A stretch of DNA of 64,000 nucleotides from Azotobacter vinelandii CA (lineage in GTDB: Bacteria; Pseudomonadota; Gammaproteobacteria; Pseudomonadales; Pseudomonadaceae): contig NC_021149.1 of NCBI RefSeq assembly GCF_000380335.1, positions 2,532,501 to 2,596,500 on the forward strand, read 5' to 3'. Positions 10,821-55,603 of this stretch are shown here, piece by piece; the first letter of the stretch is position 1; the number at the start of each line of letters is the position of its first letter. Under the pieces are notes generated by a model that did not search any database, was not told where the DNA came from, and saw only the letters and a list, made by a program, of their open reading frames with translations. The translations under genes were made by a program, and so were the position numbers.

Positions 10821-10984
10821 GGGGCGATTCTGGAGGGATAGCCGGCCAAGTCAACCATCTGGTCGCATGAGAAGGGGGCGGCACCGCTTTTATCTTCCCG
10901 TGCTCGCCGACGCGCCATACTCATGGGGGCGAGTCATGGGAGGACGGCGGGCTCATCGGTTCCGATGGGCTATTGCAGACTGAG

Positions 10985-14349: not shown

Positions 14350-15327
14350 ATGACCGACCATGCCTCCTCCCCTCTTGCAAGCGATAACCTCCTCGATGAG
14401 GCGGCCTACTGGTGCATGCGAATGCATGCGGAAGACTGCACGAATGAGGAACGCACGGCGTTCGAACGCTGGCTGAAAATCAGCCCGGCCCACATGCGCG
14501 AGTACCAGGCAATGCTCGACATATGGCTGGTCAGCGAGCACCTGCCTGTCCAGGCGATAGCTGGAGATTCGGTTCGGACCTCGCCTCGGCGGCGCTCGCG
14601 CAGGCCTGCCTTGGCGGCCGCGGCTTTGTTGCTTCTTTCGCTGGGTAGTCTGCTGGGCTGGCAGCAAGGATGGCTTCCCAACCACATTCAGCGCTTCCAT
14701 GCCGAGGACAGTACTCGCGAAGTGATCCTGGCGGATGGATCGCGCGTGCACTTGAATCTGGATACCACGCTATGGTTCGTCAATTTCCGTGATCGCCGCA
14801 GTGTGAAACTCAGTGAGGGCGAAGCCTTCTTCGAGGTTCAGCACGATGCCCGCCACCCATTCGTGGTGTATGCCGGCAAGGGCAGCGTTACCGTCACCGG
14901 CACCCGCTTCAACGTATGGAAATATGCGGACCAGGTGGTCGTCACCCTGACCGAAGGTTCGGTCAAGGTACATGGCGATACGGAACAGCCCGACCAGGTG
15001 ACTTACCTATCTCCTGGCTTGCAGGCTCGTTACGGAAACGATGGCGAACTGCCGCAGATATCGACCGCCAAAGCCGAGGCCCTGGCTTGGCGTGAAGGCA
15101 AGCTGGTCCTCGACGACCTTACGCTCGCCGAGGCCCTCCCCTATATCAATCGTTACCTGGACAAGCCCATTCTGCTTGCCGATCAGGCCACCGCTGACCT
15201 GCGCATCGGCGGCATCTATGACACCCGCAACATCGGACAACTGGTCCAGGTCCTGCCCAAGGTTCTACCGATCTACCTGAGCCGGAACAGTGACGATGCC
15301 ACGGTCATCGGTAGCCGGCCGCGTTAA
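14350..15327 (+). CDS. FecR-type transmembrane anti-sigma factor (FpvR-like by context)
   Basis: A 325-residue sigma regulator. The cytoplasmic N-terminal domain (about 1-75; EAAYWCMRMHAEDCTNEERTAFERWL) should hold the sigma factor. One membrane helix lies at about 83-102 (PALAAAALLLLSLGSLLGW) after an arginine-rich stop. The periplasmic FecR domain spans about 115-230 (VILADGSRVHLNLDTTLWF, EGEAFFEVQHDARHPFVVYAGKG in two blocks, VTGTRFNVW). The C-terminal STN-like domain (about 245-322) should touch the receptor's signalling domain. Divergent from the FecI-like gene with a shared Fur box. By analogy with FpvR it may also restrain the PvdS-like factor, but that is inferred. Confidence 0.9.
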   Translation: MTDHASSPLASDNLLDEAAYWCMRMHAEDCTNEERTAFERWLKISPAHMREYQAMLDIWLVSEHLPVQAIAGDSVRTSPRRRSRRPALAAAALLLLSLGSLLGWQQGWLPNHIQRFHAEDSTREVILADGSRVHLNLDTTLWFVNFRDRRSVKLSEGEAFFEVQHDARHPFVVYAGKGSVTVTGTRFNVWKYADQVVVTLTEGSVKVHGDTEQPDQVTYLSPGLQARYGNDGELPQISTAKAEALAWREGKLVLDDLTLAEALPYINRYLDKPILLADQATADLRIGGIYDTRNIGQLVQVLPKVLPIYLSRNSDDATVIGSRPR

Positions 15328-15397: not shown

Positions 15398-16525
15398 TTA
15401 CCAACCCCGTCCGGAATTGACCCAGAAATTGACGGACAGTGAAGTGGAGACGGATTCCACCTGGTGGAACCAGCCATCCGGCAGGAAGAACAGATCGCCC
15501 GCTTCCAGCACGATGTGTAAGAAATCTACCTCGCGGGCGCGGGGAAAGCGTGCGTAGTCGGGAGCTTTCGGATTTACCTCGCAGCCTTCCAGCCCGCCTT
15601 GCGGTGAGGTCGACCAAGTGCTCAGCGCCTCGCAATGATGTGGCGCCGCCAGGATGAAGGACTTGCGCCCCCAGACCTGGGCGTACAAGTTGTCCGAGTC
15701 GTCCCTATGCAGAGGAGTGAGCGTTCCCTTGGGGCCGATCCAGATGCGCGGCTTTATGAACAGGGATCGGTCGAAGTAATCCGGAAAGCGGATCAGTTCC
15801 AACAACTGTTCGGGTACTACATTGTTGCCCATATAAGGTGACGGGACACCCTCCTCCAGCTCCTGGTCCAGCCCGGCGATGAACTCGGCCATCGAGGTGG
15901 AACGGAAATCGCGCTCGGTGGAAAAAGTCTTCTGTGCATAGTCACCATGCCGAGTGATGCCCTGCAGCTTGGCGAAATGCACCAACGACTCCTCGCGACT
16001 CATGTTGAACAGCGGCCAATCCTGCAGGGCATCGCTGATGATTACCGGCAAACCTTGCGGAACGTAATGCTGGCGAAATTCCTCCACCGACAGGCCACTA
16101 CGCGGCCGTCGCTCCACCGCCTTCAGTGGCGGCTGGCCTGCCGAGACCTTGTCGCTGGCGCGCTCCGGTGCGGGATAACGCTGGTTCATACCGCGTACCT
16201 GCTCGGGCGGTGCGACACCTCGGCGAGCCGCGCCGATGATCTGTGGCAACAGGGTAGCGAGCCCCATCTGCCCACCGATCCTGAGCCGGCCGTTGGCGAA
16301 CAGTTCCTCGACATCCTGAGTACCCTGGAGAATGCCGGTGAAGTCCCGTTCGTCAAGTTCGATGGTCACGTCGGCGGTCGGATGGTGTCCGGAACGAATG
16401 GTCACCTGTTCGCCTACCTCCGCCCAGACCGCCTTTTCCGGAGGGAAGACGAACTGGAAGACCCCATTGACTCCCACCGCCTGCGCGCCGGTGAACAAAC
16501 TAGACAATACAGCGGATAAATCCAT
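15398..16525 (-). CDS. SCP2-JmjC (cupin_8) fusion, putative Fe(II)/2-oxoglutarate hydroxylase
   Basis: A 375-residue fusion. Residues 1-100 look like an SCP2 sterol-binding-type fold (GVFQFVFPP, TIRSGHHPTADVTIELDERDF, FANGRLRIGGQMGLATLLPQI). Residues 130-375 are a JmjC/cupin_8 domain: LSVEEFRQHYVPQGLPVIISDALQDWP at its start, then the HxD pair in LTPLHRDDSDNLYAQVWGRKSF and a distal His in FFLPDGWFHQVESVS, completing a 2-His-1-Asp iron site. Such enzymes hydroxylate amino-acid side chains. Known: many pyoverdines contain beta-hydroxy-Asp or beta-hydroxy-His. Inferred: it may hydroxylate a residue of this peptide, with the Asp loaded by the second NRPS as a good candidate. Start 16525 has AGGGGAG 8 bases upstream, and a PvdS box precedes it. 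The role of the SCP2 part is unknown. Confidence 0.82.
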   Translation of the reverse strand: MDLSAVLSSLFTGAQAVGVNGVFQFVFPPEKAVWAEVGEQVTIRSGHHPTADVTIELDERDFTGILQGTQDVEELFANGRLRIGGQMGLATLLPQIIGAARRGVAPPEQVRGMNQRYPAPERASDKVSAGQPPLKAVERRPRSGLSVEEFRQHYVPQGLPVIISDALQDWPLFNMSREESLVHFAKLQGITRHGDYAQKTFSTERDFRSTSMAEFIAGLDQELEEGVPSPYMGNNVVPEQLLELIRFPDYFDRSLFIKPRIWIGPKGTLTPLHRDDSDNLYAQVWGRKSFILAAPHHCEALSTWSTSPQGGLEGCEVNPKAPDYARFPRAREVDFLHIVLEAGDLFFLPDGWFHQVESVSTSLSVNFWVNSGRGW

Positions 16526-16572: not shown

Positions 16573-16596
16573 ACGGCACGGGGCCGGAATTATTTA
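16573..16596 (-). promoter_or_regulatory. PvdS-dependent iron-starvation box (SCP2-JmjC gene)
   Basis: Minus strand TAAAT (16596-16592), 16 bases, CGT (16575-16573): an exact match, placed between the pvdP stop codon and the SCP2-JmjC start 48 bases downstream. It shows that this gene has its own PvdS promoter and is not only read through from pvdP. Confidence 0.85.
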
Positions 16597-16598
16597 CG

Positions 16599-18203
16599 TC
16601 AATCATGCGGATCGCCCCGGGTCAGGTGTCGCCCATACCAGGGCCGGCGCGGCACCCGGTCCTCAAGGCGTTCGGCCTCCTCTTCGTCGGCGAACACGAT
16701 GCGCAAGGCGAGCTTCATGGTTTCCATGTCCAACTCGCCGCCATCGCCCCGGTTGCTGCGTCCCCAGGCACCACAGCCGGCCCGCGCCGGTCCCAGCCAG
16801 GGCTCGGCGACGCGCACCCAGGGGCCCGGCGCGAACCAGGGCACGCCATCGATCGTCTTGCGAACCACCTGGCCGGGATGTGTCTGTTCGTGGGCCAGGA
16901 ACCAGTCCTCGATGCGATCGTCGATCCAGCCATGGAAGGACCAGAACACCGGATCGACATGGGAAGAGAACGGATCGCCCAGGTAATCGTTGCCAGGACG
17001 GTACCAATGCTCGGCGAAATCCGCCGAACCACGTCCAAAGGGCATCGGCAACCCGCTGTTGGGATCGCGTGGTATCGATGCCCAACGCATGTGCAGCCAG
17101 TCGTGGATGCCCAGTTCGATGCGCGATCCCAGTTCGCCCAGACACAGGGTGCTGAGGTACTCCGGATCCCGGTATTGTGCCTCCCAGGCCTGGAAGTCAC
17201 CGTAATAGCCTTCGCTGCTCTTGATGTAGTACAGCCACCGGTTGAAGCTCTCGTCTCCCTGGACTTCCCACGCCGGCGGCACGGAAAAACCATCGAGGTT
17301 GGCCATGTAATCCACGAAGGCCTGGATCCCGTGGCCGATGTAGGGCCTGGGGGGCGGCAGGCTTGTCCAGGAGCGCAGATCCTGCATGGCGCGCGCACGT
17401 ATCAGCATGTCCCGGTGCATGAACAGGAAATCCTCTCCCGAGCCGTTACGGTGCCGATGCTTGCCCCGCGCATCGCGCTCCTTGCCGAGCGGACCGGCCT
17501 GCCAACCGAGCGCCCGCAACCCCTGGCGTTGCGTCGATTCGAGTCGATGCCAGCGATCGCGGCAGGCGTGCCACACCTGATGGAACAGGCGATGCCCGGG
17601 CGATACCAGCCAGGCTTTCAGCTCCGGGACATAGGACAGCCGTTCGCGGGATGCCGTGAATGGTCGTCGAACGGCGACGAACGAGGCTTCCTGCGTCGAA
17701 AGCCCAGCCTGGACGCCCGACCTGTGCAGGCGGCCGCTCAGTGTCGCCTTGCCGCCGCCGGTACTCCATGCGCCCCAGATCTCGTCGAAGATCGCCCTGC
17801 ACTCCAGCGAGCGTCCCTGGTTGTCCAGCATCCGCAAATTCAGGAATGGCGCCTTGTCGCCACTGAGGCGTCCAAAGACCTGCAGGATGTCTCCGGCATA
17901 GGGCGGTGCTCCCAGGTAACCGCGCAACGCCCGCCCACCAGGACCGATATCCAGAAGCAGTTGCAACTCCCCGGCCGGGATCTCAGGAAAGTCCTGGCGC
18001 CCGGCGATGAAACGCATGTCCCATACACCCACCAGCCGATTGGCCAGCAAAGCGTCCTGCAACACGGGTACGGGTGTATCCGGCTCGTCGGACGACAGCT
18101 CGGCAGCTTCCGACTCTTTCCATTTACGATGGGTGTACACCCCTGCCGACAAGGTCGCTGCCGCTGCCAACCCCGCCACGAATCCCCTACGAGAAAACTT
18201 CAT
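16599..18203 (-). CDS. pvdP: PvdP, periplasmic tyrosinase of pyoverdine maturation
   Basis: A copper tyrosinase that oxidises the ferribactin D-Tyr unit to close the fluorophore. The 534-residue protein begins with a twin-arginine signal, MKFSRRGFVAGLAAAATLSAG. An N-terminal beta-barrel-like domain (about 55-190; LVGVWDMRFIAGRQDFPEIPAG) precedes the tyrosinase core. Copper-ligand candidates are His residues in WLVSPGHRLFHQVWHACRDRWH, in DFLFMHRDML, in IHDWLHMRWA and in SSHVDPVFWSFHGWID. The C-terminal end after about 480 may be the placeholder segment known in PvdP. It is divergent from pvdM, each gene having its own PvdS box. Length and motif order fit PvdP. Confidence 0.95.
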   Translation of the reverse strand: MKFSRRGFVAGLAAAATLSAGVYTHRKWKESEAAELSSDEPDTPVPVLQDALLANRLVGVWDMRFIAGRQDFPEIPAGELQLLLDIGPGGRALRGYLGAPPYAGDILQVFGRLSGDKAPFLNLRMLDNQGRSLECRAIFDEIWGAWSTGGGKATLSGRLHRSGVQAGLSTQEASFVAVRRPFTASRERLSYVPELKAWLVSPGHRLFHQVWHACRDRWHRLESTQRQGLRALGWQAGPLGKERDARGKHRHRNGSGEDFLFMHRDMLIRARAMQDLRSWTSLPPPRPYIGHGIQAFVDYMANLDGFSVPPAWEVQGDESFNRWLYYIKSSEGYYGDFQAWEAQYRDPEYLSTLCLGELGSRIELGIHDWLHMRWASIPRDPNSGLPMPFGRGSADFAEHWYRPGNDYLGDPFSSHVDPVFWSFHGWIDDRIEDWFLAHEQTHPGQVVRKTIDGVPWFAPGPWVRVAEPWLGPARAGCGAWGRSNRGDGGELDMETMKLALRIVFADEEEAERLEDRVPRRPWYGRHLTRGDPHD

Positions 18204-18236
18204 TCTTCGCTCGCTATACCAGCTATTCCTGCGAGA

Positions 18237-18260
18237 ACGAATGCCGGGGACCCGAATTTA
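18237..18260 (-). promoter_or_regulatory. PvdS-dependent iron-starvation box (pvdP)
   Basis: Minus strand TAAAT (18260-18256), 16 bases, CGT (18239-18237): an exact match ending 34 bases before the pvdP start codon. Confidence 0.87.
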
Positions 18261-18322
18261 TGCATGCCCCACTCTGCGCAGCCCTCTAACCAGACCAGCT
18301 CGGAGCTGCGCCCCCTCAACGC

Positions 18323-18346
18323 TAAATCCTCCCCTCGCCTGCTCGT
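18323..18346 (+). promoter_or_regulatory. PvdS-dependent iron-starvation box (pvdM-pvdO-pvdO operon)
   Basis: Plus strand TAAAT (18323-18327), 16 bases, CGT (18344-18346): an exact match 59 bases before the pvdM start. It is back to back with the pvdP box, giving a divergent PvdS promoter pair. Confidence 0.87.
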
Positions 18347-18405
18347 CTTCCCAACGAAATCGGCCGGGTATCCGGCCGGCCAACACCATCAATTCTGGGA
18401 GCCCC

Positions 18406-19806
18406 ATGAGCACTCGTCGTACCGTTCGGAAATGGCTACTCCTGAGCATCCTGTCGCTGATCGCCGTGGCGGCGGTCGCCTCGCTGGTCTGGTGGCTTTT
18501 CATTCGTCAGTCCTTGCCCTACTCGCGCGATGTCATGCGCAAGGCCAATGACTTGCAGGAAAGGATCCTGTCCTTCGACGCCCATATCGATCTTCCCCTG
18601 GAATACGGAAGCGGGGGTATGGAAGCCGACCGCGACGGTCGCACGCAGTTCGATCTGGTCAAGGCCGCTCGTGGCCGCCTGAGCGGAGCGGCGCTCACCA
18701 TCTGGGCCTGGCCGGAGTTCTGGATCGGCCCCAATGCTCCGCACCGGCCGACACCCGGTTTCGTCGAGGCGGCGCGACATGAACAAGAGGCCCGCTACCG
18801 GATCATCACCGGCATCGCCCGCGACTATCCTGAACGGGCCGGCATCGCTTATAGCCCTGCCGATTTCCGCCGTCTGGCCCACGAGGGCAAGTTCGCCATC
18901 GTCATCAGCATGCTCAATGCCTATCCGCTGGGCGACGAGGTCTCGCGGCTGGACGACTGGGCCGCACGTGGCATGCGCATCTTCGGCTTCAACTATGTGG
19001 CCAACAACACCTGGTCGGACTCCTCCCGCCCCATGCCCTTCTACGGCGACTCGCCCGACGAGCATGGCGGCCTCTCCGAGTTGGGACGACAGGCCGTGAG
19101 ACGCCTGAACGACCTGGGCGTGGTCATCGATGTCTCACAGATGTCCAGCAGCGCCCTCGAACAGGTCACCGATCTCAGCCGCGCCCCGATCATCGCTTCG
19201 CACTCAGGCATACGCGGTCTGGTGGACATACAGCGCAATCTGACCGACCGGGAGCTGCGCCTGATCCAGAAGACCGGCGGTGTGGTTCATATCGCCGGCT
19301 TCTCTTCCTACCTGCGTCCCTTCTCCAAGGAAACCCTCGCCAAGGTCAACGCCATGCGCACAGGCTTCGGCCTGCTGGATGTCGAGAACCTCTCCCAGGC
19401 CAGCATGCCGGCCGATCCGGTGTTCTCGATCTGGCCTGAGAAGCGCTTCGGCGAGTACGCCAGCCAGCTCTATGCCATCCTCGAAACCGATCCACGGGCG
19501 GGCCTGAAGGAATTCGGCGATGCCATCGACTATGCCGTGAAGAAGATAGGCATCGACCACGTCGGCATCAGTTCCGACTTCAACGATGGCGGCGGTGTGA
19601 TCGGCTGGGAGAACGTCGGCGACGCCCGTAACGTCACCGCCGAACTCATTCAGCGTGGCTACTCGGACGAGGACATCGCCAAGCTGTGGGGTGGCAACTT
19701 CCTGCGGGTATGGGAGCAAGTGCAGAACGCCAGCAGGCAGAGCCACGACGACATCACAACATCTCCATCTCAAGAAACGCCCACTCAAAGGAGTACAACG
19801 CAGTGA
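18406..19806 (+). CDS. pvdM: PvdM, membrane dipeptidase-family protein
   Basis: A periplasmic protein of the renal dipeptidase (M19) family, needed in P. aeruginosa for the step in which ferribactin is oxidised. The 466-residue product starts with a signal-anchor at about residues 9-33 (KWLLLSILSLIAVAAVASLVWWLF). The dipeptidase fold is seen in SFDAHIDLPLEYG (HxD), in GMRIFGFNYVANNTWSDS, IASHSGIRGLVDIQRNL and IGIDHVGISSDFNDGGG. Start ATG 18406 follows GGGAG; a longer frame upstream would run through the promoter. Its stop overlaps the GTG start of the next gene, so translation is coupled. pvdN, the usual next gene in P. aeruginosa, is absent here. Confidence 0.94.
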   Translation: MSTRRTVRKWLLLSILSLIAVAAVASLVWWLFIRQSLPYSRDVMRKANDLQERILSFDAHIDLPLEYGSGGMEADRDGRTQFDLVKAARGRLSGAALTIWAWPEFWIGPNAPHRPTPGFVEAARHEQEARYRIITGIARDYPERAGIAYSPADFRRLAHEGKFAIVISMLNAYPLGDEVSRLDDWAARGMRIFGFNYVANNTWSDSSRPMPFYGDSPDEHGGLSELGRQAVRRLNDLGVVIDVSQMSSSALEQVTDLSRAPIIASHSGIRGLVDIQRNLTDRELRLIQKTGGVVHIAGFSSYLRPFSKETLAKVNAMRTGFGLLDVENLSQASMPADPVFSIWPEKRFGEYASQLYAILETDPRAGLKEFGDAIDYAVKKIGIDHVGISSDFNDGGGVIGWENVGDARNVTAELIQRGYSDEDIAKLWGGNFLRVWEQVQNASRQSHDDITTSPSQETPTQRSTTQ

Positions 19807-20693
19807 GTCGTTCATTTCTGTCGATCGCCTGCTCATCCGTTTTCCTGTACTTCGTGGGCGGGGCAAACGCAAGTGAAACGGAATACTTGGCAGGCACGGT
19901 TTTCAAAGACTGTGAGCGCTGCCCTGAAATGGTCGTTTTACCCGCTGGCGAGTTCATCATGGGCTCCTCCGGCGTGGAGGCTGGCCACCAACCGGATGAA
20001 AGCCCCCAGCACAAGGTGACATTCGAACACCCGTTCGCCATCAGCCGTTTTTACGTCACCGCAGCCGAATGGGACGCCTATGCCCAAGAAACCGATGTGA
20101 AGCTGAAAGATGGCGACACTCGCCCCGGAAGAGAATGCCTCGCGGGCAAACCCCGCTATCCTCAAGGTCTGCGACAACCCGCTGTCTGTGTCGATTACAA
20201 CGACACGAAAGGCTATATCGACTGGCTGGCGCGCAAAACAGGCCAGCCCTACCGGATGATCAGCGAGGCCGAGCGCGAATATGCAGCCCGAGCGGGTAGC
20301 ACCGGCCCATTCCCATATCCGGTCGACGAGACAACTTTCAACATCAGCCGTCATGCGAACACCATCGGTTCTGCGGACGGTTTCGAGTTCACCTCTCCCG
20401 TCGACAGTTTCCCACCCAATGCCTTCGGGGTTTATGACACCCACGGCAATGTCTGGGAATGGGTCGCCGATTGCCTGAACCCGGATTATCAGGGGGCTCC
20501 GACAGACGGCAGCGCTTGGATGCAGGGGGATTGCCTCAGGCACATCATCCGGGGTAATGACTGGATTTCCATTCCTGTTTTTTCCCGCTCAGCCAATCGC
20601 AATTCACGTCCCTCCGAAGCTCGAGGCGACTGGATAGGTTTTCGAGTGGCCAAGCCTCTTTCCACTGCGAAACAGGCGGAGAGAAAGGAATGA
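19803..20693 (+). CDS. pvdO: PvdO-like formylglycine-generating-enzyme family protein, copy 1
   Basis: A 296-residue member of the FGE-sulfatase family. PvdO is the periplasmic enzyme that oxidises the tetrahydropyrimidine ring of the ferribactin-derived intermediate to complete the fluorophore. The GTG start overlaps the pvdM stop and has AAAGGAG 9 bases upstream. The signal peptide is VSRSFLSIACSSVFLYFVGGANA. The mature part has AGTVFKDCERCPEMVVLPAGEFIMGSS in two blocks, GQPYRMISEAEREYAARAGS, NAFGVYDTHGNVWEWVADC and a final RGDWIGFRVAK, the family hallmarks. It aligns end to end with the next gene. Both copies share the same Cys pattern near the N-terminus. Which copy does the PvdO step cannot be told from sequence alone. 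Confidence 0.92.
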   Translation: MSRSFLSIACSSVFLYFVGGANASETEYLAGTVFKDCERCPEMVVLPAGEFIMGSSGVEAGHQPDESPQHKVTFEHPFAISRFYVTAAEWDAYAQETDVKLKDGDTRPGRECLAGKPRYPQGLRQPAVCVDYNDTKGYIDWLARKTGQPYRMISEAEREYAARAGSTGPFPYPVDETTFNISRHANTIGSADGFEFTSPVDSFPPNAFGVYDTHGNVWEWVADCLNPDYQGAPTDGSAWMQGDCLRHIIRGNDWISIPVFSRSANRNSRPSEARGDWIGFRVAKPLSTAKQAERKE

Positions 20694-21640
20694 GCATTCA
20701 CAGATCCAAAGACGAATCAAGCGAGAAGAATATTTCCAAAACCACGAAACGCCTCGCACGGTCTATTGAGTCAGGATCGATAGTGGCGGTCAGGATACTT
20801 CCAGTCCTTTACTGCGTTACTGCACTCTTGACGGCTTCCCAGGCAATTGCGGCACCAGCGCCCGGTACCGTATTCAAAGACTGTCCGGAATGCCCGGAAA
20901 TGGTAGTGCTACCTGCCGGCAGCTTCATCATGGGCACCCTGGAGGACGAACTGGGCAGGCAACCGGACGAGGGCCCGCAGCACAAGGTGACCTTCGCCAA
21001 GCCCTTCGCCATCAGCCGCTTTCACGTCACGGCGAAAGAGCTGAACGCCTACATCAAGCAAACCGGCGTGGTCATCAAGAGTGGCGACGAGCGCCCCGGT
21101 CGCTGGTGCGAGGCGAGCAAGCCCAGCTATCCGCAAGGTCCCCGTCAACCGGCGGTCTGCATCGACTACCACGAAGTCCAAACCTATACCGAGTGGCTAT
21201 CGAAGAAAACCGGCAAGCGCTACCGCATGGTCAGCGAAGCGGAACGCGAATACGCTGCCCGTGCCGGTTCCACGGGCCCCTTCCCGTTCCCGTTCGACAA
21301 GGAAGGGGAATATCAGATCGACAAACACGCTAATACTTATGGCCCCAAGGATGGCTACAGCTACAGCTCCCCGGTCGGCAGCTACCCACCCAATGCCTTC
21401 GGCGTGTACGACATGCACGGCAACGTCTACGAATGGGTCGCCGACTGCAAGCATCCCGATTATGTCGGTGCACCAACCGACGGTAGCGCCTGGATAGACG
21501 ACAAAAACTGTGAGCGGGCTCACATGCGTGGCAACGACTGGGGTGAATCACCGATCTTTTCTCGTTCGGGCAATAGAAATGACAGACTGAAAACTACACG
21601 TGGAGACTTTTTGGGGTTCAGGGTAGTCCGGGATCTCTAA
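20690..21640 (+). CDS. pvdO: PvdO-like formylglycine-generating-enzyme family protein, copy 2
   Basis: A second 316-residue FGE-family protein, ATGA-overlapped with copy 1. It has a longer N-terminal tail before the signal segment (about residues 33-54, VRILPVLYCVTALLTASQAIAA; shown whole it exceeds the core motif). The mature part shares FKDC-ECPEMVVLPAG, FAISRFHVTA, RYRMVSEAEREYAARAGS, PPNAFGVYDMHGNVYEWVADC and RGDFLGFRVVRDL with copy 1. Differences are spread through the sequence, so the duplication is not recent. Possible outcomes: one is the true PvdO and the other acts on a different step, or they form a hetero-pair. The pvdM-pvdO-pvdO operon is driven by one PvdS box. Confidence 0.91.
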   Translation: MSIHRSKDESSEKNISKTTKRLARSIESGSIVAVRILPVLYCVTALLTASQAIAAPAPGTVFKDCPECPEMVVLPAGSFIMGTLEDELGRQPDEGPQHKVTFAKPFAISRFHVTAKELNAYIKQTGVVIKSGDERPGRWCEASKPSYPQGPRQPAVCIDYHEVQTYTEWLSKKTGKRYRMVSEAEREYAARAGSTGPFPFPFDKEGEYQIDKHANTYGPKDGYSYSSPVGSYPPNAFGVYDMHGNVYEWVADCKHPDYVGAPTDGSAWIDDKNCERAHMRGNDWGESPIFSRSGNRNDRLKTTRGDFLGFRVVRDL

Positions 21641-31312: not shown

Positions 31313-34300
31313 CTATAGCAGATCACACAGAGATGAAATAAAGCTTGATTCCTGCAGAATTTGATAGTGATTGGTTTTCAAAAAAAACTCCAGCTTGGGT
31401 TTTCTTTGAATCATCCTATATAGTTGCTGACTTTCAAATTCCCGGCCTTTAATCCACCAACAGTGAGGGGTAGTGGTTATCTTGGGAAGCTCCCCAAAGT
31501 CTTGCATCAGTAAGCTCATTTGTCTATATACGCGAAATGCATCAGTCAGCTCTTTTATATTTAATTCAAGATGAATGTTATGGTGGTCCGTCAAAAAACG
31601 TATTGTCTGAAGGATATTTTGTGGAGTTTCCGGCAAGCCATCCAGTAAATTGTAGTTATTGGCATTACTGGCATTGTTTATGACGACAGCTTTTATAAAG
31701 TCATAAAGCTCTTTTTGCCACTCTCGATTCTTGCTTTTCTTGCCGGCTGTTACAAAACTGTCTACCAATCCTAAAAAATTAACCTGCTGCCCTTGATGCT
31801 CTAGCTCTCGAGCTATCAGAATACTCAAGGCTCCCCCTAAAGACCAACCTAACAGATGGTATGGACCTTCCTTTTGTTGCTCTCGAATAAGCGAGGTATA
31901 ATTTTCGACCATTGAGCCTGGTGTTTTATCTATCCAGTTCGAGTCAAGCAACATACGTGATTGAATGCCTATCACAGTACGGCGACCGTTTAATCGTTGA
32001 GCCAATGATTTATAATCAAAAACAGTTCCAAATCCACCATGAACACAAAACAAAGGAGGAGCACTATAGATTTTTTTGTTCAATACCAATAAGCGATTGC
32101 TGTTATTGTTAAGCAAGTCTGAAATAGTTGGCTTCTGCATCAAGTCTTGCAGGGTTGAGTCGAAGCCGTATTCTTTCAACGCTTTCAATTTAGACACTAA
32201 TTGAACAGCGATAATAGAGTCGCCGCCCAGCTCGAAGAAGTTGTCGGTCAGGCCCACCCGCTCGACCTTGAGCACCTCGGCCCAGATCGCCGCGATCCGT
32301 TGCTCCAGTTCGCTCGCCGGGGCCACGTAGGCCCGCTGCAGCAGGCTGACGTCCGGCCTAGGCAGCGCCTTGCGGTCCAGCTTGCCGTTGGGCGTCAGCG
32401 GCAGCCGCTCGAGGAACACCAGGTGTACTGGTACCATGTAGTCCGGCAGCACCGCCCCGAGGTGCGCCTTCAGTTCGCCGCGCAGGCCGGTTTGGCGTTC
32501 GTCGCCGTCCAGCATCGCCGGGGCGTCGGGCACCAGGTAGGCGGCCAGTTGCTTGCTGCCCGGCCCGTCGATGTCGATCACCACCGCCTCGCGCACGGCC
32601 CCGTGCTGCTGCAGCCGGGCCTCGATCTCGCCCAGCTCGATGCGGAAGCCGCGGATCTTCACCTGATGGTCGATACGGCCCAGGTACTCGATCACCCCGT
32701 CGGTCCGGTAACGGGCCAGGTCGCCGGTGCGGTACAGGCGCCCGCCGCCCTGCTCGCTGTCGTCGAACGGGTCGGGGACGAAGCGGTCGGCGGTCAGGCC
32801 CGGACGATGCCAGTAGCCCTCGCCCACGCAGTCCCCGCCGACATGCAGTTCCCCCGCCTGCCCGAGGGCGACCGGCCCGGCCGAGCCGTCGAGGACATAG
32901 GCGCTGACCCCGGGCAGCGGCCGCCCGATCGGCAAAGTGCTCAGCCCCGGCACCGCGCTTCCCGGCGTCGCCCGGGCGATCACCACGTCCGTGCATTCGG
33001 TCGGACCATAGGTGTTGTGGATCGAGACGTTCGCCGCCTGGGGCGAGTCCAGCCACTCCGCCAGTTCTCCCGGCTGGATGGCCTCGCCCCCCAGGAGGAC
33101 GTGTTTCAGGCTGGCCAGTTCGGCGCGATCGCCCTGCAGCAGGGGGTAGAAGGCGCTCGGGGCGCAGTTGAGCACGCTCAGCCGGTGTTTTCCGATCTGC
33201 CGGCGATGGCTGTCCGGGTCGTAGCCCGCCGGGGCGATGTGCAGTTGCCCTCCCGCGCACAGCACGCCGTACAGGTTCTTCTGGGTCAGGTCGAAGCTGT
33301 AGGAGCTGAGCAGCAGCACCCGGTCGTCCGCGGTCAGTTCGCAGGCGGCCCGGTACCAGTGCAACAGGTTGACGAAGCTGCCGATTCGCACCGCCGCACC
33401 CTTGGGCTGCCCGGTGGAGCCGGAGGTGTAGATCACGTAGGCCAGGTTCTGCGGCATCGTCCGGTTGGCTGGGTTCTCTTCGCCATAGCCCTCCAGCCAG
33501 TCGTCGTCTGGCTCCAGGAACAGGCTCTGCGCCCCGTCGGCTGAGGGCAGCCGGTCCTGCAGGTGCCGCTGGGTTAGCAGCAAGCCGACACCGCTGTCCC
33601 CGATCATGTACGCCAGCCGCTCCCCTGGGTACTCCGGGTCCAGCGGCACATAGGCCCCGCCGGCCTTGAGGATCGCCAGCAGCCCCACCACCATCTCGAA
33701 GCCCCGCTCCACCGCGATGCCCACCAGCACGTCCGGACCCACGCCCAGTTCGCGCAGCCGGTGCGCCAACCGGTTGGCCCTGCGGTTCAGCTCTCCGTAG
33801 CTCATTTCCTGTTCGCCGAACACCAGGGCCACCGCCTCCGGGGTCCTCGCCACCTGATCCTCGATCAACTGGTGCACGCTGCGCTCGCTCGGGTAGCTGG
33901 CCTCGGTCCGGTTCCAGTCGTGAACGATCTGGCGGTATTCCTCCGGGGCCAGCAGCGGCAGTTCGCCGATAGCGGCCCGGGCGTCGCTGGTCAGGCCTTG
34001 CAGCAGCCGGGCGAAATGCCCCGCGATCCGCTCGATGCCTGCTGCGTCGAAATGCCCGCGGTCGTAGCCGTAGCGCACCGTCAGCGTTTCGCCCAGGCCG
34101 ATGGCCAGGGTCAGCGGGTAGTTGGTCTGTTCCCGGACGGCTAGCCGCTCGAACACCAGGCCCTCGGGCGCGCCCTGCTGCAATGCCTCGGCGATCGGGT
34201 AGTTCTCGAACACCAGCAGGCTGTCGAACAGCGCCTCGCCGCCCAGCCCGGCCCAGCGCTGGATCTCGTACAGCGGCGTGTGTTCGTGTTCGCGCAGGCC

Positions 34301-37300
34301 CAGGTTCTGCGCCTGGACCTGGCCGAGCCACTCGCCTACGCGCTGTTCCGCCCGGGGGCTGGCGATCACCGGCAGGGTGTTGATGAACAGGCCCAGTTGC
34401 CCTTCCACGCCCTGCAGCTCGGCCGGACGTCCCGCCACGGTGGCGCCGAAGCACACCGTCGCCTGCCCACTGTAGCGCTGTAGCAACAGCAGCCAGGCCG
34501 CCTGCACCAGGGTGTTGACCGTCACCCGCTGGGCCCGGGCGAACTCGCTCAGGCAACGGGTCTGTTGCGGGTCGAACACCTGCTGATGGTCGCCATGACC
34601 GGCTCGTTTCTCCGCTTCGTCGATCTTGATGGCCTGGGCCAGCCGGGTCGGCTCCTCCAGGGCGCCGAGTTGCTCCCGCCAGAAGGCTTCGCTGGCGGCC
34701 CGGTCCTGCCGGCCCAGCCAGGCGATGTAGTCGCGGTAGCGGAGGCCCGGGTGCCCGATGGGTTTGCCCGTATAGGCCTGCAGCACCTCGCCCTGCAGTT
34801 GCGAGCCGCTCCAGCCGTCCAGCAGGATGTGGTGGTTGGTGTAGATCAGGTGGTGGCGGTTCTCCCCGGTGCGGATCACCGCCAGCCGCAGCAGCGGCTC
34901 GCGCTCCAGGTCGAAGCCCCGTTGCCGGTCCGTCTGCGCCCAGGTGTCCAGGCTGTCCTGCAGTTGCGGCTGGCTGCGCCAGTCCAGTTCGACACAAGGC
35001 ATGGAAACCTGCCTGCGGATCACCTGCAGCGGACGTCCGTCCACCTCGACGAAGCTGGCCCTGAGCACCTCGTGCCGGTCGACCACCGCCTGCCAAGCGG
35101 CCCTGAAGCGTGCGACGTCCAGCCCTTCCACGTCCACCCGCATCTGGTTGATGTAGTGGCCCGCCTCCCCCTCCAGTAGGCTGTGGAACAGCATGCCCTG
35201 CTGCATCGGCGACAGCGGATAGATATCCTCGATTTCCCCTGCGGGGACCGGCAGTGCGTCCAGTTGCTCCTGGCTCAATCCGGCCAGGGGGACATCCGAG
35301 GGCGTCACGCCGCGATTATTCTCATCTGCACAGTGCGCGACCAGGGCTTCGAGTTCCCGAGCATACGCGTCGGCCAGGCGCTGGATCGTCGCCTCGGCGA
35401 AGCGTTCCCGGCTGAAGGTCCAGGTCAGACTCAGTTCGCCCCCATAGACCTGGCCGTTGATCGACAGCCAGTTGCCCAGCGGGGCGTCCGGGCTTTGCTC
35501 GGCGCCGGCACTTTCGCCCGCGGGGACCAGCAGGATATCTCCTTCGTTTCGATCGAAGCTGCCGTCGAACTGGCCCAGGTAGTTGAAGGTGATACGCGGC
35601 ACCGGCAGTCCGGCCAGGCGTCGCCGAGTCGAGTCGTCGCCCAGGTAACGCAGGATACCGAAACCGATACCCTTGTTCGGAATGGCCCGCAACTGCTCCT
35701 TGATCACCTTGATCGAGCCGTCCAGCGTTTCGGCCGGACTCAGCTTCACCGGATACGCACTGGTGAACCAGCCCACCGTACGGGTCAGGTCGATATCGTC
35801 GAACAGGTCCTCCCGCCCGTGGCCTTCCAGTTGCACCAGGGTGGCGGCCTGGCCCGTCCAGCGGGTGAGTACCCGGGCCAGGGCGGTCAGCAACAGGTCG
35901 TTGACCTGGGTGCGGTAGGCGGCCGGCGCCTCCTGCAGCAGGCGGCGTGTCCAGTCGCGCGCCAGATGGGTGCTCGCATGCGCCGCATGCCGGTTCTGCT
36001 GGCCGCCGGTGGGGTTGTCGCAGGGCAGTTCGCCGGCGACATCTTCGAGCTGCTCCCGCCAGTGGGCCAGTTCCCGTTGCCCGGCTTCACTGTTCGCATA
36101 GCCTTGCAGGTGCTCCACCCAGGCTCTGGTCGAGCTGGTCTTGCCTGGCAGGCTGACCGGCTGTCCCTGCTCCAGTTGCCCGTAGGCCGTCTGCAGGTCT
36201 TCCAGCAGGATCCGCCAGGACACGCCGTCCACCACCAGGTGATGGATCGCCAGCAACAGGCGTTGGCTGCCATCGGCGAGTTCGGCCAGTACCCCCCGCA
36301 ACAGGGGGCCTTCCTGCAGGTTCAGACTACGCTGGGCTTCGTTGCCCAGCCGTTCCAGTTCCTCCGCGGAGCGCAGTTCGGCCTGCCAGAGCACGGACTG
36401 CCGTTCGCTGGCCGGGCGGTAGCGGGCGCTCCAGTGGCCCGCCGGGTCTTCGACGAACGCCAGGCGCAGGGCATCGTGATGGTCGATCAGGGCCTGCACG
36501 GCCTGTTCGAGCCGGGCACCGTCCAGGGGCCTGCTCGGCCGGAGCAGCAGCGACTGGTTCCAGTGGTGCCGCTCGGGGATGGCCTCTTCGAAGAAGTACT
36601 GCTGGATCGGCAGCAGCGCGGTTTCTCCGCTGAGCGGGCCCTGGTCGATGCGCACACCGCCTTCGTCACCCAGGCGGGCCACCGTAGCCAGTCCCTGCAC
36701 TGTCTGGTGCTGGAACAGGTCCTTGGGCGTGAAGCGGATACCGGTTTGCCGGGCCCGACTGACCACCTGCAGAGAAATGATCGAGTCGCCGCCCAGCTCG
36801 AAGAAGTTGTCGGTCAGGCCCACCCGCTCGACCTTGAGCACCTCGGCCCAGATCGCCGCGATCCGCTGCTCCAGTTCGCTCGCCGGGGCCACGTAGGCCT
36901 GCTGCAGCAGACTGGCGTCCGGCCGGGGCAGCGCCTTGCGGTCCAGCTTGCCGTTGGGGGTCAGCGGCAGCCGCGCGAGGAACAGCAGGTGCGCCGGCAC
37001 CATGTAGTCCGGCAGCGCCGCCCCGAGGTGTGCCTTCAATTCGCGGCGCAGTTCGGTTTGGCGTTCGTCGCCCTCCAGCATCGCCGAGTCGTCGGGCACC
37101 AGGTAGGCGGCCAGTTGCCTGCCGCCCGGCCCCTCGACGTCGATCACCACCGCCTCGCGCACCGCCTCGTGCTGCTGCAGCCGGGCTTCGATCTCGCCCA
37201 GCTCGATGCGGAAGCCGCGGATCTTCACCTGGTAGTCGAGGCGGCCAAGATAGTCGATCAGGCCATCGGAACGTGCCCTCGTCAGGTCACCGCTCCGGTA

Positions 37301-39949
37301 GAGCCGCTCGCCTTCGCTTCCGAGCGGGTCGGGCACGAAGCGTTCTGCCGTCAGCCCGGGCCGGTCCAGATAGCCGCGTGCCAAGCCCTCGCCTCCCAGA
37401 TGGAGCTCGCCGGCAAAGCCGATCGGCAACAGGTTCAGGTTGGTATCCAGCACATAGGCGCAACGCCGGCCCAGCAGTGTGCCAATAGGCGCGTAAGCCG
37501 CACCGCAGGCATCACTCTGCCGGGCTTTCCATAGCAGAGGGGTCACTACCGTTTCGGTCGGCCCGTAGCCATTGAAGATGTATTGCGGACGCAAGGCTCG
37601 CCAGGCCAGATCGTAGGTTGCCTGCGGTACCGCATCGCCGCCGAAGCAATAGACACGTACCGGTGGAGGATTGCCATCATGCTCGGCATATTCGGCCAAC
37701 TGCTGCAGGTATACCGGTGGCAGGGCCGTCACCGTGACGCCATATCGATGCATGGCTCGATAGGTTTGTTCCGGGGTCCACAACTCATCGCCGCACATCA
37801 GTAGATGGGCACCATGGCTCAATGCCGTGAGCCAGCGTTCATGAGCCCCGTCGAACGCCAGGGACATGAACTGCAGTTCGCAGTCCGACATGCTCATTTC
37901 GTAGCGTTCGCCGGCGGCCAGGCAATGCATTGCCAGTGGTCCATGGGACACCATCACGCCCTTGGGCTGCCCGGTAGAGCCCGAGGTGTAGATCACGTAG
38001 GCCAGGCTCTCCGCCGTCAATGCCATCTGCGGTGCCGAGTCGGGATATCCCTGCCAGTTGTCGGTCCGATCCACTGCCAGGGCCGGCAGACCATCGGGGA
38101 GCGGCAATTGGCCCAGCACATCGCTCTGGGTCAGCACCAGCGCAGCGGCACAGTCCTTCATCATGTACAGCTGGCGATCCTGTGGATACTTCAGATCCAG
38201 TGGGACATAGGCGCCTCCGGCCTTCAGCACGGCCAGGAACGCCACCATGATTTCAGGCGAGCGGCGCATGGCTATTGCCACTCTAGTTTCAGGCTTTACA
38301 CCCAGCTCGATCAGGTAGTGGGCCAGCCGGTTAGCCTGGGCGTCGAGTTGCCGATAAGTGAGTCGCTGCTCGTCGCAAGTCACCGCCAGTGCTTCCGGTG
38401 TTTTTCCAGCCCTATCCTCGATCAACAAATGTACGCACTGGGTAGCTGGATAATCGGCCTGAGTCTGGTCCCATCGATCCAGGATGAATCGATGTTCCGC
38501 CTCGCTCAGCAGGGGAAGCTCGCCGATCCGTCGTTGTGGCTGTTCCACGATACCGTGCAACAGGTTGAGCCAGTGCCCGACCATGCGTTCGATAGTCGTT
38601 TCGTCGAACAGATCGGTGGCATAGGTCAACGAGGCCCAGAGGCCCGTTTCGGACTCGGAAGTATTCAGGGTCAGATCGAAATGGGTGACATGACTCTCCC
38701 ATGCCAGCCCTTCCACGCTGAGTCCGGGCAGGGTCCGCGCCTCGCCTTTCACCGCCGTCTGGTGGTTGTACATCACCTGGAACAACGGGCTGTGGCTCAG
38801 GCTGCGCTCCGGCTGCAGGGCCTCCACCAGTTGCTCGAACGGCAGGTCCTGGTGCGCCTGGGCCTCCAGGGCGCTCTGTTTCACCTGGCGCAGCAGCTCG
38901 ACGAAGGTGGTCTGCAGCTCGAATTCGGCCTTCAGCACCTGGGTGTTGACGAAGAAGCCGATCAGTCCTTCCGTTTCCGCCCGGGTGCGGTTGGCGATCG
39001 GTACGCCCACCCGGATGTCGTCCTGCCCGCTGTAGCGGTACAGCAGGCTCTGGAAGCTGGCCAGCAGCAGCATGAACAGGGTCACGCCCTCCCGCCGGGC
39101 CAGTTCCCGCAGGGAGCGGGCCAGTTCGCCGTCGAGTTCGACGGCCAGCCGGGCTCCGGCATAGGTCTGCACGGCCGGCCGCGGCCGGTCGCCTAGTAGC
39201 TCCAGCACCGGCTGTTCGCCGCCCAGTTGCGCGATCCAGTAATCCAGTTGCCGGTCCCGTTCGCCGGCCTCCATCCACTGGCGCTGCCAGAGGGCGTAGT
39301 CGGCGTACTGGACCGGCAACTCCGGCAGCCTCACCTCGTGCCCCTGGCTGTAGCCTTCGTACAGCCGGACCAGCTCGTCCACCATGAGCGGGCCGGACCA
39401 GCCGTCCGAGACGATGTGGTGCAGGGTCAGCACGAGCACGTGGTCGTTCTCGTCCAGATGCAGCAGCTTCACCCTCAGCAGCGGGCCGTGCTCCAGGTCG
39501 AACAGGCGTTGGACCTCGGCCTCCACCCGGGCCCGGATCCGCTCGTCCAGGCCGGTGGCGGCATCCGCCGGCAGCGGCTCCTGCTCGAACCAGAGGCTGC
39601 CGCTGGGGTGGATGACCTGGAGCGTCCGCTCGCCGTCTTGGCGGAAGGTGGTGCGCAGGGACTCATGGCGCCGGATCAGGGCCTCGAAGCTGCGTCGCAG
39701 GGCCTCGATGTCCAGGGCGCCTTTCAAGCGTAGCGCCGCCGGGATGTGGTAGGCGGCGCTCCCGGGCTCCAGTTGCCAGAGGAACCACTGGCGTTGCTGG
39801 GCGTAGGAAAGAACAGGCTGCTCTCCAGGCTCCCTCTTGAAAATGGGAGTGACTCCGTAGAGATTCACACCTTGTCGCTTGAGCAAGGCTGCCAGTGCCT
39901 TGCGTTCCTTGGGGGACAACGACTTTACGGAGTCGAGCAGCTCTTGCAC
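31313..39949 (-). CDS. PvdD-like NRPS, two modules with terminal thioesterase
   Basis: A 2,878-residue peptide synthetase that adds the last two residues and releases pyoverdine. Order: C (HHIVSDG near 177), A1 (core YTSGSTG near 653), T (GGDS near 1053), E (HHLVVDG near 1235), C of the D-accepting type (HHILLDG near 1704), A2 (near 2173), T (near 2574), TE (GWSLGG, Ser near 2700; His in NHYQIL). The start is GTG with GGAG 9 bases upstream, opening VQELLDSVKSLSPKERKALA as in PvdD. A1 pocket residues read D-G-E-A-C-G-G-V-T-K; Glu at the third position suits a basic side chain, perhaps an ornithine derivative (low confidence). A2 reads D-L-K-N-L-G-T-D-V-K, the X type. From the last T domain to the stop the DNA is much more AT-rich than the rest. 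Confidence 0.93.
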   Translation of the reverse strand: MQELLDSVKSLSPKERKALAALLKRQGVNLYGVTPIFKREPGEQPVLSYAQQRQWFLWQLEPGSAAYHIPAALRLKGALDIEALRRSFEALIRRHESLRTTFRQDGERTLQVIHPSGSLWFEQEPLPADAATGLDERIRARVEAEVQRLFDLEHGPLLRVKLLHLDENDHVLVLTLHHIVSDGWSGPLMVDELVRLYEGYSQGHEVRLPELPVQYADYALWQRQWMEAGERDRQLDYWIAQLGGEQPVLELLGDRPRPAVQTYAGARLAVELDGELARSLRELARREGVTLFMLLLASFQSLLYRYSGQDDIRVGVPIANRTRAETEGLIGFFVNTQVLKAEFELQTTFVELLRQVKQSALEAQAHQDLPFEQLVEALQPERSLSHSPLFQVMYNHQTAVKGEARTLPGLSVEGLAWESHVTHFDLTLNTSESETGLWASLTYATDLFDETTIERMVGHWLNLLHGIVEQPQRRIGELPLLSEAEHRFILDRWDQTQADYPATQCVHLLIEDRAGKTPEALAVTCDEQRLTYRQLDAQANRLAHYLIELGVKPETRVAIAMRRSPEIMVAFLAVLKAGGAYVPLDLKYPQDRQLYMMKDCAAALVLTQSDVLGQLPLPDGLPALAVDRTDNWQGYPDSAPQMALTAESLAYVIYTSGSTGQPKGVMVSHGPLAMHCLAAGERYEMSMSDCELQFMSLAFDGAHERWLTALSHGAHLLMCGDELWTPEQTYRAMHRYGVTVTALPPVYLQQLAEYAEHDGNPPPVRVYCFGGDAVPQATYDLAWRALRPQYIFNGYGPTETVVTPLLWKARQSDACGAAYAPIGTLLGRRCAYVLDTNLNLLPIGFAGELHLGGEGLARGYLDRPGLTAERFVPDPLGSEGERLYRSGDLTRARSDGLIDYLGRLDYQVKIRGFRIELGEIEARLQQHEAVREAVVIDVEGPGGRQLAAYLVPDDSAMLEGDERQTELRRELKAHLGAALPDYMVPAHLLFLARLPLTPNGKLDRKALPRPDASLLQQAYVAPASELEQRIAAIWAEVLKVERVGLTDNFFELGGDSIISLQVVSRARQTGIRFTPKDLFQHQTVQGLATVARLGDEGGVRIDQGPLSGETALLPIQQYFFEEAIPERHHWNQSLLLRPSRPLDGARLEQAVQALIDHHDALRLAFVEDPAGHWSARYRPASERQSVLWQAELRSAEELERLGNEAQRSLNLQEGPLLRGVLAELADGSQRLLLAIHHLVVDGVSWRILLEDLQTAYGQLEQGQPVSLPGKTSSTRAWVEHLQGYANSEAGQRELAHWREQLEDVAGELPCDNPTGGQQNRHAAHASTHLARDWTRRLLQEAPAAYRTQVNDLLLTALARVLTRWTGQAATLVQLEGHGREDLFDDIDLTRTVGWFTSAYPVKLSPAETLDGSIKVIKEQLRAIPNKGIGFGILRYLGDDSTRRRLAGLPVPRITFNYLGQFDGSFDRNEGDILLVPAGESAGAEQSPDAPLGNWLSINGQVYGGELSLTWTFSRERFAEATIQRLADAYARELEALVAHCADENNRGVTPSDVPLAGLSQEQLDALPVPAGEIEDIYPLSPMQQGMLFHSLLEGEAGHYINQMRVDVEGLDVARFRAAWQAVVDRHEVLRASFVEVDGRPLQVIRRQVSMPCVELDWRSQPQLQDSLDTWAQTDRQRGFDLEREPLLRLAVIRTGENRHHLIYTNHHILLDGWSGSQLQGEVLQAYTGKPIGHPGLRYRDYIAWLGRQDRAASEAFWREQLGALEEPTRLAQAIKIDEAEKRAGHGDHQQVFDPQQTRCLSEFARAQRVTVNTLVQAAWLLLLQRYSGQATVCFGATVAGRPAELQGVEGQLGLFINTLPVIASPRAEQRVGEWLGQVQAQNLGLREHEHTPLYEIQRWAGLGGEALFDSLLVFENYPIAEALQQGAPEGLVFERLAVREQTNYPLTLAIGLGETLTVRYGYDRGHFDAAGIERIAGHFARLLQGLTSDARAAIGELPLLAPEEYRQIVHDWNRTEASYPSERSVHQLIEDQVARTPEAVALVFGEQEMSYGELNRRANRLAHRLRELGVGPDVLVGIAVERGFEMVVGLLAILKAGGAYVPLDPEYPGERLAYMIGDSGVGLLLTQRHLQDRLPSADGAQSLFLEPDDDWLEGYGEENPANRTMPQNLAYVIYTSGSTGQPKGAAVRIGSFVNLLHWYRAACELTADDRVLLLSSYSFDLTQKNLYGVLCAGGQLHIAPAGYDPDSHRRQIGKHRLSVLNCAPSAFYPLLQGDRAELASLKHVLLGGEAIQPGELAEWLDSPQAANVSIHNTYGPTECTDVVIARATPGSAVPGLSTLPIGRPLPGVSAYVLDGSAGPVALGQAGELHVGGDCVGEGYWHRPGLTADRFVPDPFDDSEQGGGRLYRTGDLARYRTDGVIEYLGRIDHQVKIRGFRIELGEIEARLQQHGAVREAVVIDIDGPGSKQLAAYLVPDAPAMLDGDERQTGLRGELKAHLGAVLPDYMVPVHLVFLERLPLTPNGKLDRKALPRPDVSLLQRAYVAPASELEQRIAAIWAEVLKVERVGLTDNFFELGGDSIIAVQLVSKLKALKEYGFDSTLQDLMQKPTISDLLNNNSNRLLVLNKKIYSAPPLFCVHGGFGTVFDYKSLAQRLNGRRTVIGIQSRMLLDSNWIDKTPGSMVENYTSLIREQQKEGPYHLLGWSLGGALSILIARELEHQGQQVNFLGLVDSFVTAGKKSKNREWQKELYDFIKAVVINNASNANNYNLLDGLPETPQNILQTIRFLTDHHNIHLELNIKELTDAFRVYRQMSLLMQDFGELPKITTTPHCWWIKGREFESQQLYRMIQRKPKLEFFLKTNHYQILQESSFISSLCDLL
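33755..35287 (-). repeat. NRPS internal long direct repeat, copy in the PvdD-like gene
   Basis: 1,533 bases matching 60512-62044 at a constant offset of 26,757; the only mismatch I found is at 35096. It encodes most of the D-accepting condensation domain and the start of the X-type adenylation domain. Sequence diverges sharply on both sides. Confidence 0.85.
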
Positions 39950-55602: not shown

Positions 55603-55603
55603 T

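Follow-up and report, generated by a model that had tools for sequence, protein, structure and literature searches.

In a 64,000-nucleotide stretch of the Azotobacter vinelandii CA genome (this whole stretch is called the window here), the gene between pvdP and a FecR-domain gene encodes an SCP2 domain fused to a JmjC/Cupin_8 domain. This SCP2-JmjC gene is real, conserved and linked to PvdS, and its membership in the pyoverdine pathway is supported. Judging from sequence and distribution, we consider it rather likely that the product is a cytoplasmic, PvdS-induced Fe(II)/2-oxoglutarate (2OG) hydroxylase of the N-acylated Glu1 of the siderophore precursor, with the SCP2 domain gripping the acyl tail. 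The gene would be the best candidate for the malamide hydroxylase of pyoverdines, and a first step toward the ring of azotobactin is a plausible role for its enzyme. A sequence-only reading had proposed a pyoverdine-tailoring hydroxylase with an Asp loaded by the assembly line as its possible substrate. Tailoring hydroxylase remains the likely role, whereas Asp is most probably not the substrate and Glu at position 1 is a better target.

The fusion recognized in the sequence-only reading was recovered by Pfam. SCP2 matched residues 18-96 (E 1.2e-7, 32.4 bits against a cut-off of 21.3) and Cupin_8 matched residues 149-368 (E 2.6e-38, 132.8 bits against 27.4), and both were matched in all 22 aligned family members. 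JmjC_2 was barely over its cut-off at residues 263-366 (24.8 bits against 22), JmjC PF02373 missed its own (20.8 bits against 24), and no TauD/TfdA domain was found in the protein at E values up to 0.01. The predicted HxD...H iron site held up in the alignment: H273-x-D275...H354, together with K288, was unchanged in every one of the 36 distinct sequences that the 41 loci yielded. By analogy to FIH and JMJD5, we take the first three residues to bind iron and K288 to bind 2OG. JMJD5 was also the best sequence match of the JmjC part (phmmer E 2.2e-22). In an AlphaFold model, residues 134-370 aligned with JMJD5 by VIA-align (Z 16.8, 214 residues, root-mean-square deviation (rmsd) 3.6, 27% identity). 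Residues 1-103 aligned with SCP2 folds (Z 13.3-13.9, rmsd 2.0-2.3), namely the SCP-2L domain of human MFE-2 (1ikt, Z 13.3) and the C-terminal domain of the sec-alkylsulfatase Pisa1. No signal-like N-terminus was seen in the protein by inspection alone.

The PvdS box upstream of the gene, also part of the sequence-only reading, was recovered as the gene's own. Six boxes of this type lay in the window against 0.34 expected, and 0 of 100 shuffles reached six. Among 36 SCP2-JmjC loci (41 minus 5 duplicates), 29 had an exact box within 150 nt upstream, and the box started at 55-75 nt in all 29. Full-length relatives occurred in 37 of the 398 genomes of the host's family, the host counted, at 66-79% identity with self excluded. 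Below these carriers, the next best matches were single domains or fragments. Any match at E 0.001 was obtained in 378 of the 398 genomes; the weak ones covered mainly the SCP2 part at ~27-34% identity, and two places inspected held no clear gene. The other three genomes of the host's genus lacked the SCP2-JmjC gene. The link to pyoverdine loci drawn from the sequence reappeared in a survey of co-occurrence, with PvdP in 37 of 37 carriers against 141 of 398 genomes overall (hypergeometric 7e-19, kinship uncorrected). When named genomes were scanned with exact short peptides, 11 loci came up, each of them in Pseudomonas; among their hosts are P. lopnurensis, P. ovata, P. chlororaphis, P. syringae and P. 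viridiflava isolates. Because relatives occur across many Pseudomonas, the idea that the gene serves azotobactin alone was given up. The gene adjoined pvdP in the window and in L006, L039, L040, L048 and L049 (L and G numbers are our handles for loci and genomes). It was adjacent to, or one gene from, the first side-chain nonribosomal peptide synthetase (NRPS) gene in L041-L047, and lay amid other pvd genes apart from the side-chain NRPS in G284 and G355.

The peptides of carriers and non-carriers were read from adenylation (A) domain codes. The carriers G364 and G343 have seven modules, Ser-OHOrn-Ala-Gly-Thr-Ala-OHOrn (OHOrn, hydroxyornithine). Other carriers read Asp-OHOrn-Lys-Thr-Ala-Ala-OHOrn-Lys (G184), Asp-Ser-Ser-OHOrn-Glu-Glu-OHOrn (G353, with Glu read from the PvdL module 1 code), Lys-Asp-Ala-Thr-Ala-OHOrn (G326 and G344) and Asp-Lys-Asp-Ser-... 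(G284, G311, G355 and G360). G455, a relative of G311, also begins Asp-Lys-Asp-Ser, close to GB-1, and its NRPS runs off the contig. Two genomes without the gene, G259 and G314, share their residue order with the carriers G326 and G344, and the last NRPS of G314 has one condensation-type domain more than that of G344. Because carrier peptides vary and one order is common to carriers and non-carriers, the target is expected in the constant Glu-Tyr-Dab part (Dab, diaminobutyrate).

Some pyoverdines bear malamide or malate side chains, whose biosynthesis is stated as not known (PMC6206403, PMC9569983). These side chains require an "unknown hydroxylating enzyme", and the hydroxyl position is left unresolved in the passage concerned (PMC6206403). 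The P. fulva peptide is Asp-Ser-Ser-AcOHOrn-Lys-Lys-cOHOrn (acetylated and cyclic hydroxyornithine), found as malamide, succinamide, succinate, cyclic and azotobactin-like isoforms. Its tandem mass spectra show an unmodified Asp (373 to 488, 115 Da) and the extra oxygen in the acyl side chain (PMC12195549). Our computed masses for the succinamide, succinate, malamide, cyclic and azotobactin forms explained the five peaks listed for P. fulva NBRC 16639 in Table 2 of that article. By these masses, the peak at 1204.56 is the succinamide form and that at 1205.54 the succinate form, whereas the text of the article exchanges the two. The malamide form minus the azotobactin form corresponded to C3H7NO2 in P. 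fulva (1220.55/1131.50, ~89.05 Da), and the gap in P. putida GB-1 was 89.04. GB-1 produces 31% malic acid amide form and 54% azotobactin form, and MnB1 and CFML 90-51 produce malamide and/or malate plus azotobactin (PMC4019867).

The 4.8-Mb P. fulva-type genome G385 carries the SCP2-JmjC gene beside an NRPS beginning Asp-Ser. An NRPS of G385 has the codes OHOrn-DAEDHGTVT-DAEDHGTVT-OHOrn, and the Lys code DAEDHGTVT belongs to P. fulva alone among the 26 domains in Table 5 of PMC12195549. No TauD match was found in G385 at E 0.001. Strain NBRC 100650 is taken here to be KT2440. For this strain, Table 4 of PMC12195549 gives succinamide, succinate and the cyclic form, and none of its Table 4 peaks has the malamide mass, the peak at 1092.42 fitting no computed form. 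The SCP2-JmjC gene is absent from G386, which has the KT2440-type peptide. The chromophore ion of P. syringae 1448a at 357.13 (PMC3207962) matched the computed succinamide value of 357.119; the SCP2-JmjC gene is missing from G361 and G369, both of the P. syringae type. Across these few genomes, matched by NRPS codes, the gene was present in A. vinelandii and the P. fulva type and absent from the KT2440 and P. syringae types. For P. putida NBRC 12996 (a G311-type peptide) and 15366, the computed masses fit malamide in Table 4, yet an Ala/Ser exchange would give the same mass, and none of the computed forms accounts for one NBRC 12996 peak and several of 15366. Only the missing malamide mass of KT2440 was counted from Table 4 for these reasons.

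A target in the part common to all carriers would also suit an enzyme that acts elsewhere on the chromophore precursor, on Tyr or Dab, or on a pathway protein, the correlation with malamide then being coincidental. The nearest solved relatives, JMJD5 among them, are protein hydroxylases. We regard this explanation as unlikely. The five assigned peaks of P. fulva NBRC 16639 leave no unexplained oxygen on the chromophore, and confinement of the gene to pvdP genomes (37 of 37) disfavours a housekeeping protein as the target.

Beta-hydroxylation of a carrier-bound Asp or another peptide residue, in parallel to the TauD enzymes or in their place, is more doubtful still, and Asp hydroxylation was rejected as the main function. 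JmjC relatives hydroxylate the beta-carbon of Asn, Asp and His, and the assembly line of the window does load Asp, as had been read from the sequence, at positions 1 and 5 of 10. TauD was found in 24 of the 37 carriers and in 51 of the remaining 104 pvdP genomes, which is not a significant difference (p = 0.13). Against an Asp substrate, none of the NRPS modules in the 60 kb examined in each of the carriers G364 and G343 codes for Asp; that span held no further side-chain NRPS, and neither genome gave a TauD match at E 1e-60. G385 carries the gene without TauD, and P. fulva retains the plain 115-Da Asp. The shared residue order of carriers and non-carriers also argues against a peptide residue. 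In A. vinelandii, the three side-chain NRPS genes hold ten A domains, Asp-Ser-Hse-Gly, Asp-Ser-X-Hse and OHOrn-Hse (Hse, homoserine). We take this ten-residue order to be that of azotobactin D of A. vinelandii, with X then citrulline, and we assume a single hydroxy-Asp in the azotobactin structure. A stand-alone TauD gene beyond the window end is probably the Asp beta-hydroxylase of azotobactin, and because the locus has this gene of its own, the single hydroxy-Asp is accounted for. The published azotobactin cluster of A. vinelandii has 12 genes, including four NRPSs, a TauD/TfdA gene, a PvdS-like sigma factor and a receptor, and the SCP2-JmjC gene is not named in the passage that describes it (PMC4465626).

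Action on the ferri-siderophore after uptake, in iron release or turnover with a neighbouring SIP/FAD reductase, is very unlikely: such a gene adjoins in L041, L045 and G385 by Pfam and in L042 and G353 by protein start, but A. vinelandii has no SIP/FAD neighbour, the SCP2 domain would be given no evident role, and iron release from pyoverdine is held to be periplasmic (PMC8085936).

With hydroxylation of N-acylated Glu1 as the favoured reading, the substrate would be the gamma-linked L-Glu with its N-terminal myristoyl chain, either bound to PvdL or within acylated ferribactin. The enzyme is expected in the cytoplasm, where 2OG and Fe(II) are found, because it is a 2OG oxygenase whose N-terminus does not look like a signal, and at this site Glu1 would still be intact and N-acylated when acted on. 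In alkylsulfatases, the SCP2-like domain is believed to accommodate the substrate's alkyl chain. Since SCP2 would hold an alkyl chain in those fused enzymes, we propose that the SCP2 domain here takes the myristoyl chain. The fold behind the earlier suggestion of a bound acylated precursor was matched by VIA-align, and binding itself would follow by analogy. The JmjC domain would then hydroxylate the adjacent Glu1, most likely at C-beta, the carbon hydroxylated by FIH-type JmjC enzymes. Export and then deacylation by PvdQ would follow. PvdN, together with hydrolysis, would turn beta-hydroxy-Glu into malamide or malate, not succinamide or succinate. Without PvdN, as in A. vinelandii, a ring nitrogen could attack the acyl carbonyl of the hydroxylated chain, and the remaining chain would leave, aided by the beta-hydroxyl, to give the urea ring of azotobactin. 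In plain succinamide, the chain would have to leave without this help.

The A. vinelandii azotobactin chromophore differs from the pyoverdine chromophore. A shared beta-hydroxyl intermediate would make malamide and azotobactin forms appear together, which agrees with a comment that azotobactin is made via pyoverdine (PMC10669500). Beyond that comment, the literature consulted gave no route to the azotobactin ring. More tentatively, one beta-hydroxy-Glu may be the branch point, leading through PvdN to malamide or malate and without PvdN to the cyclic urea, so that all carriers without PvdN would be azotobactin producers. The carriers concerned are A. vinelandii, P. ovata, P. lopnurensis and G300, G249, G327, G333 and G374. 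No PvdN match was obtained in A. vinelandii at E 1e-20, an orthologue was missing in six further carriers of the 37, and no match came from P. ovata or from the genome that holds L040. On the tree, the nine PvdN-less rows required 2 changes against a shuffled mean of 8.2, which is only a hint because rows L041, L042 and L045 were entered as PvdN-positive by assumption. In G249, G300, G327, G333 and G374, which have no PvdN orthologue, TauD was found within long open frames (897-3482 amino acids). The first A domain beside the gene in this G300-type group codes for Ala (read in G300, L043, L044, L046 and L047). The group is predicted to consist of azotobactin-type producers.

Several observations weigh against hydroxylation of Glu1. 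Ringel and Bruser incline towards succinamide being hydroxylated directly, a hydroxylated Glu intermediate never having been found (PMC6206403). Table 4 of PMC12195549 also gives mass pairs 16 apart for several further P. putida strains. This +16 is ambiguous, since an Ala/Ser exchange or a missing hydroxyl would also give it. The chemotypes, that of P. fulva included, were tied to genomes via NRPS codes instead of strain names. The tie to PvdN loss is weak and at most suggestive (p = 0.07), PvdN being absent from 7 of the 37 carriers and from 8 of the 104 pvdP genomes that are not carriers. The exact PvdS box was not found within 150 nt upstream in 7 of the 36 loci; one of these, L045, sits downstream of a SIP gene with its own PvdS box. 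The AlphaFold model covers both folds at middling confidence (mean predicted local distance difference test (pLDDT) 64.5), with pLDDT below 50 at residues 264-276, including two iron ligands. Damaged copies indicate that the gene can be lost: G425 has a copy with an internal stop, covering residues 20-290 (G425:C1:3008807-3009625), in G331 the copy has shrunk to two end fragments (G331:C52:254963-255186), and that of L049 is truncated or frameshifted. If the Glu1 proposal is true, the strains with damaged copies G425 and G331 should be without malamide.

The SCP2-JmjC protein shares features with several known systems. In common with JMJD5/KDM8 and FIH-type enzymes it has the double-stranded beta-helix fold, the HxD...H site and the 2OG lysine, whereas it is bacterial, fused to SCP2 and encoded behind a PvdS box in siderophore loci, and its proposed substrate is an acyl-amino acid, not a protein. 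Known siderophore Asp and His beta-hydroxylases belong to the TauD family. Described as SyrP-like, TBH_Asp, IBH_Asp and IBH_His (PMC12971057), they too are Fe(II)/2OG enzymes that tailor siderophores made by NRPS clusters. The probable Asp hydroxylase of azotobactin itself is TauD by Pfam, whereas the SCP2-JmjC protein combines Cupin_8/JmjC with SCP2. In contrast to siderophore Asp hydroxylases, its gene is not tied to Asp modules, and some of its carriers have TauD while others do not. PvdN and PtaA would share Glu1 of ferribactin as a target; they are periplasmic enzymes of the pyridoxal phosphate type (PMC6206403), whereas the SCP2-JmjC enzyme is predicted to be cytoplasmic and to act earlier. 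The alkylsulfatases SdsA1 and Pisa1 also fuse an SCP2 fold to an enzyme (Pisa1 mutant: Z 13.9, rmsd 2.0, 100 residues), but their catalytic domain is unrelated and their SCP2 domain is C-terminal, not N-terminal.

Judged by title and abstract, no treatment of the SCP2-JmjC gene was found in searches of the open-licence PMC literature. If the branch-point reading is true, this would be, to our knowledge, the first JmjC enzyme in siderophore assembly, as well as the first oxygenase to recognize an NRPS intermediate by its lipid tag with the help of a fused SCP2 domain. The gene offers one named candidate both for malamide/malate chemistry and for the azotobactin ring of A. vinelandii, a model nitrogen fixer. 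JmjC/Cupin_8 and an SCP2 tail holder would join the tool set of nonribosomal peptide tailoring, and the side-chain type would become predictable by genome mining. The published metallophore rules rely on known Asp/His hydroxylase families (PMC12971057). The features of the locus are collected in Table 1.

Table 1. Features of the A. vinelandii SCP2-JmjC locus (positions in the window unless contig coordinates are given)
Feature	Position	Strand	Basis or remark
SCP2-JmjC fusion gene, candidate Fe(II)/2OG hydroxylase of a pyoverdine/azotobactin precursor	15398..16525	-	intact open reading frame, ATG start, 375 amino acids
SCP2 fold, residues 1-103	16217..16525	-	Pfam SCP2 and VIA-align fold match
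JmjC/Cupin_8 domain, residues 134-370; H273, D275, H354 (iron), K288 (2OG)	15416..16126	-	Pfam, alignment, VIA-align
PvdS-type box TAAAT-N16-CGT	16596..16573	-	starts 71 nt 5' of the SCP2-JmjC start codon
pvdP, chromophore tyrosinase	16599-18203	-	NCBIfam NF051454, 688.6 bits against cut-off 625; own PvdS box 18260..18237
FecR-domain protein	14350-15327	+	Pfam
pvdM-like membrane dipeptidase	18007..19806	+	Pfam Peptidase_M19
pvdO, dihydropyoverdine dehydrogenase	20690..21640	+	NCBIfam NF051459, 524.2 bits against 500
NRPS, OHOrn(DGEACGGVT)-Hse(DLKNLGTDV)	31313..39949	-	A-domain codes
NRPS, Asp-Ser-X(DAENIGAIT; Cit by order)-Hse	39961..55623	-	A-domain codes
NRPS, Asp-Ser-Hse-Gly	55604..64000, extends beyond the window to 69871	-	A-domain codes
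Stand-alone TauD gene, 327 amino acids	G000:C1:2605116-2606096, ~8.6 kb beyond the window end	-	Pfam

The placement of the gene between pvdP and the FecR-domain gene agrees with the sequence-only reading. The start of the pvdM-like gene is probably over-extended, a guess made from its overlap with pvdP. In other carriers, the SIP/FAD neighbours adjoin the SCP2-JmjC gene directly and are of the ferric-reductase type by Pfam in L041, L045 and L107 (the G385 locus); those of L042 and L139 (G353) were judged by similar protein start. A TauD-JmjC operon was considered and dropped, the reading frame before the gene in L041 and L045 being the SIP/FAD reductase by Pfam, not TauD. A TauD gene does lie near the SCP2-JmjC gene in G243, G304, G326, G344 and G424. 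An alpha/beta-hydrolase of ~320 amino acids (Abhydrolase_3 in L127:18353-19321) recurs near pyoverdine NRPS genes or next to the SCP2-JmjC gene, and by similar start it is also found in G284, G353, G360, G364 and G370.

Two tandem PvdO/FGE-sulfatase paralogues lie at 19686-20693 and 20690-21640 (+), of which only the second clears the NCBIfam cut-off, and the PvdO site is single in L040, L048 and L049. As a speculation, the extra PvdO-type copy may serve azotobactin chromophore chemistry. An Acetyltransf_8 (GNAT) protein is encoded at 21942-23000 (+) with a PvdS box directly upstream at 21876, and it is possibly the acetyltransferase for N-acetyl-N-hydroxyornithine. On the other side of the SCP2-JmjC gene, a patatin-like protein (TIGR03607, 700.7 bits against 262.45) is encoded at 10973-13462 (+), preceded by a FixJ-like regulator at 9364-10197.

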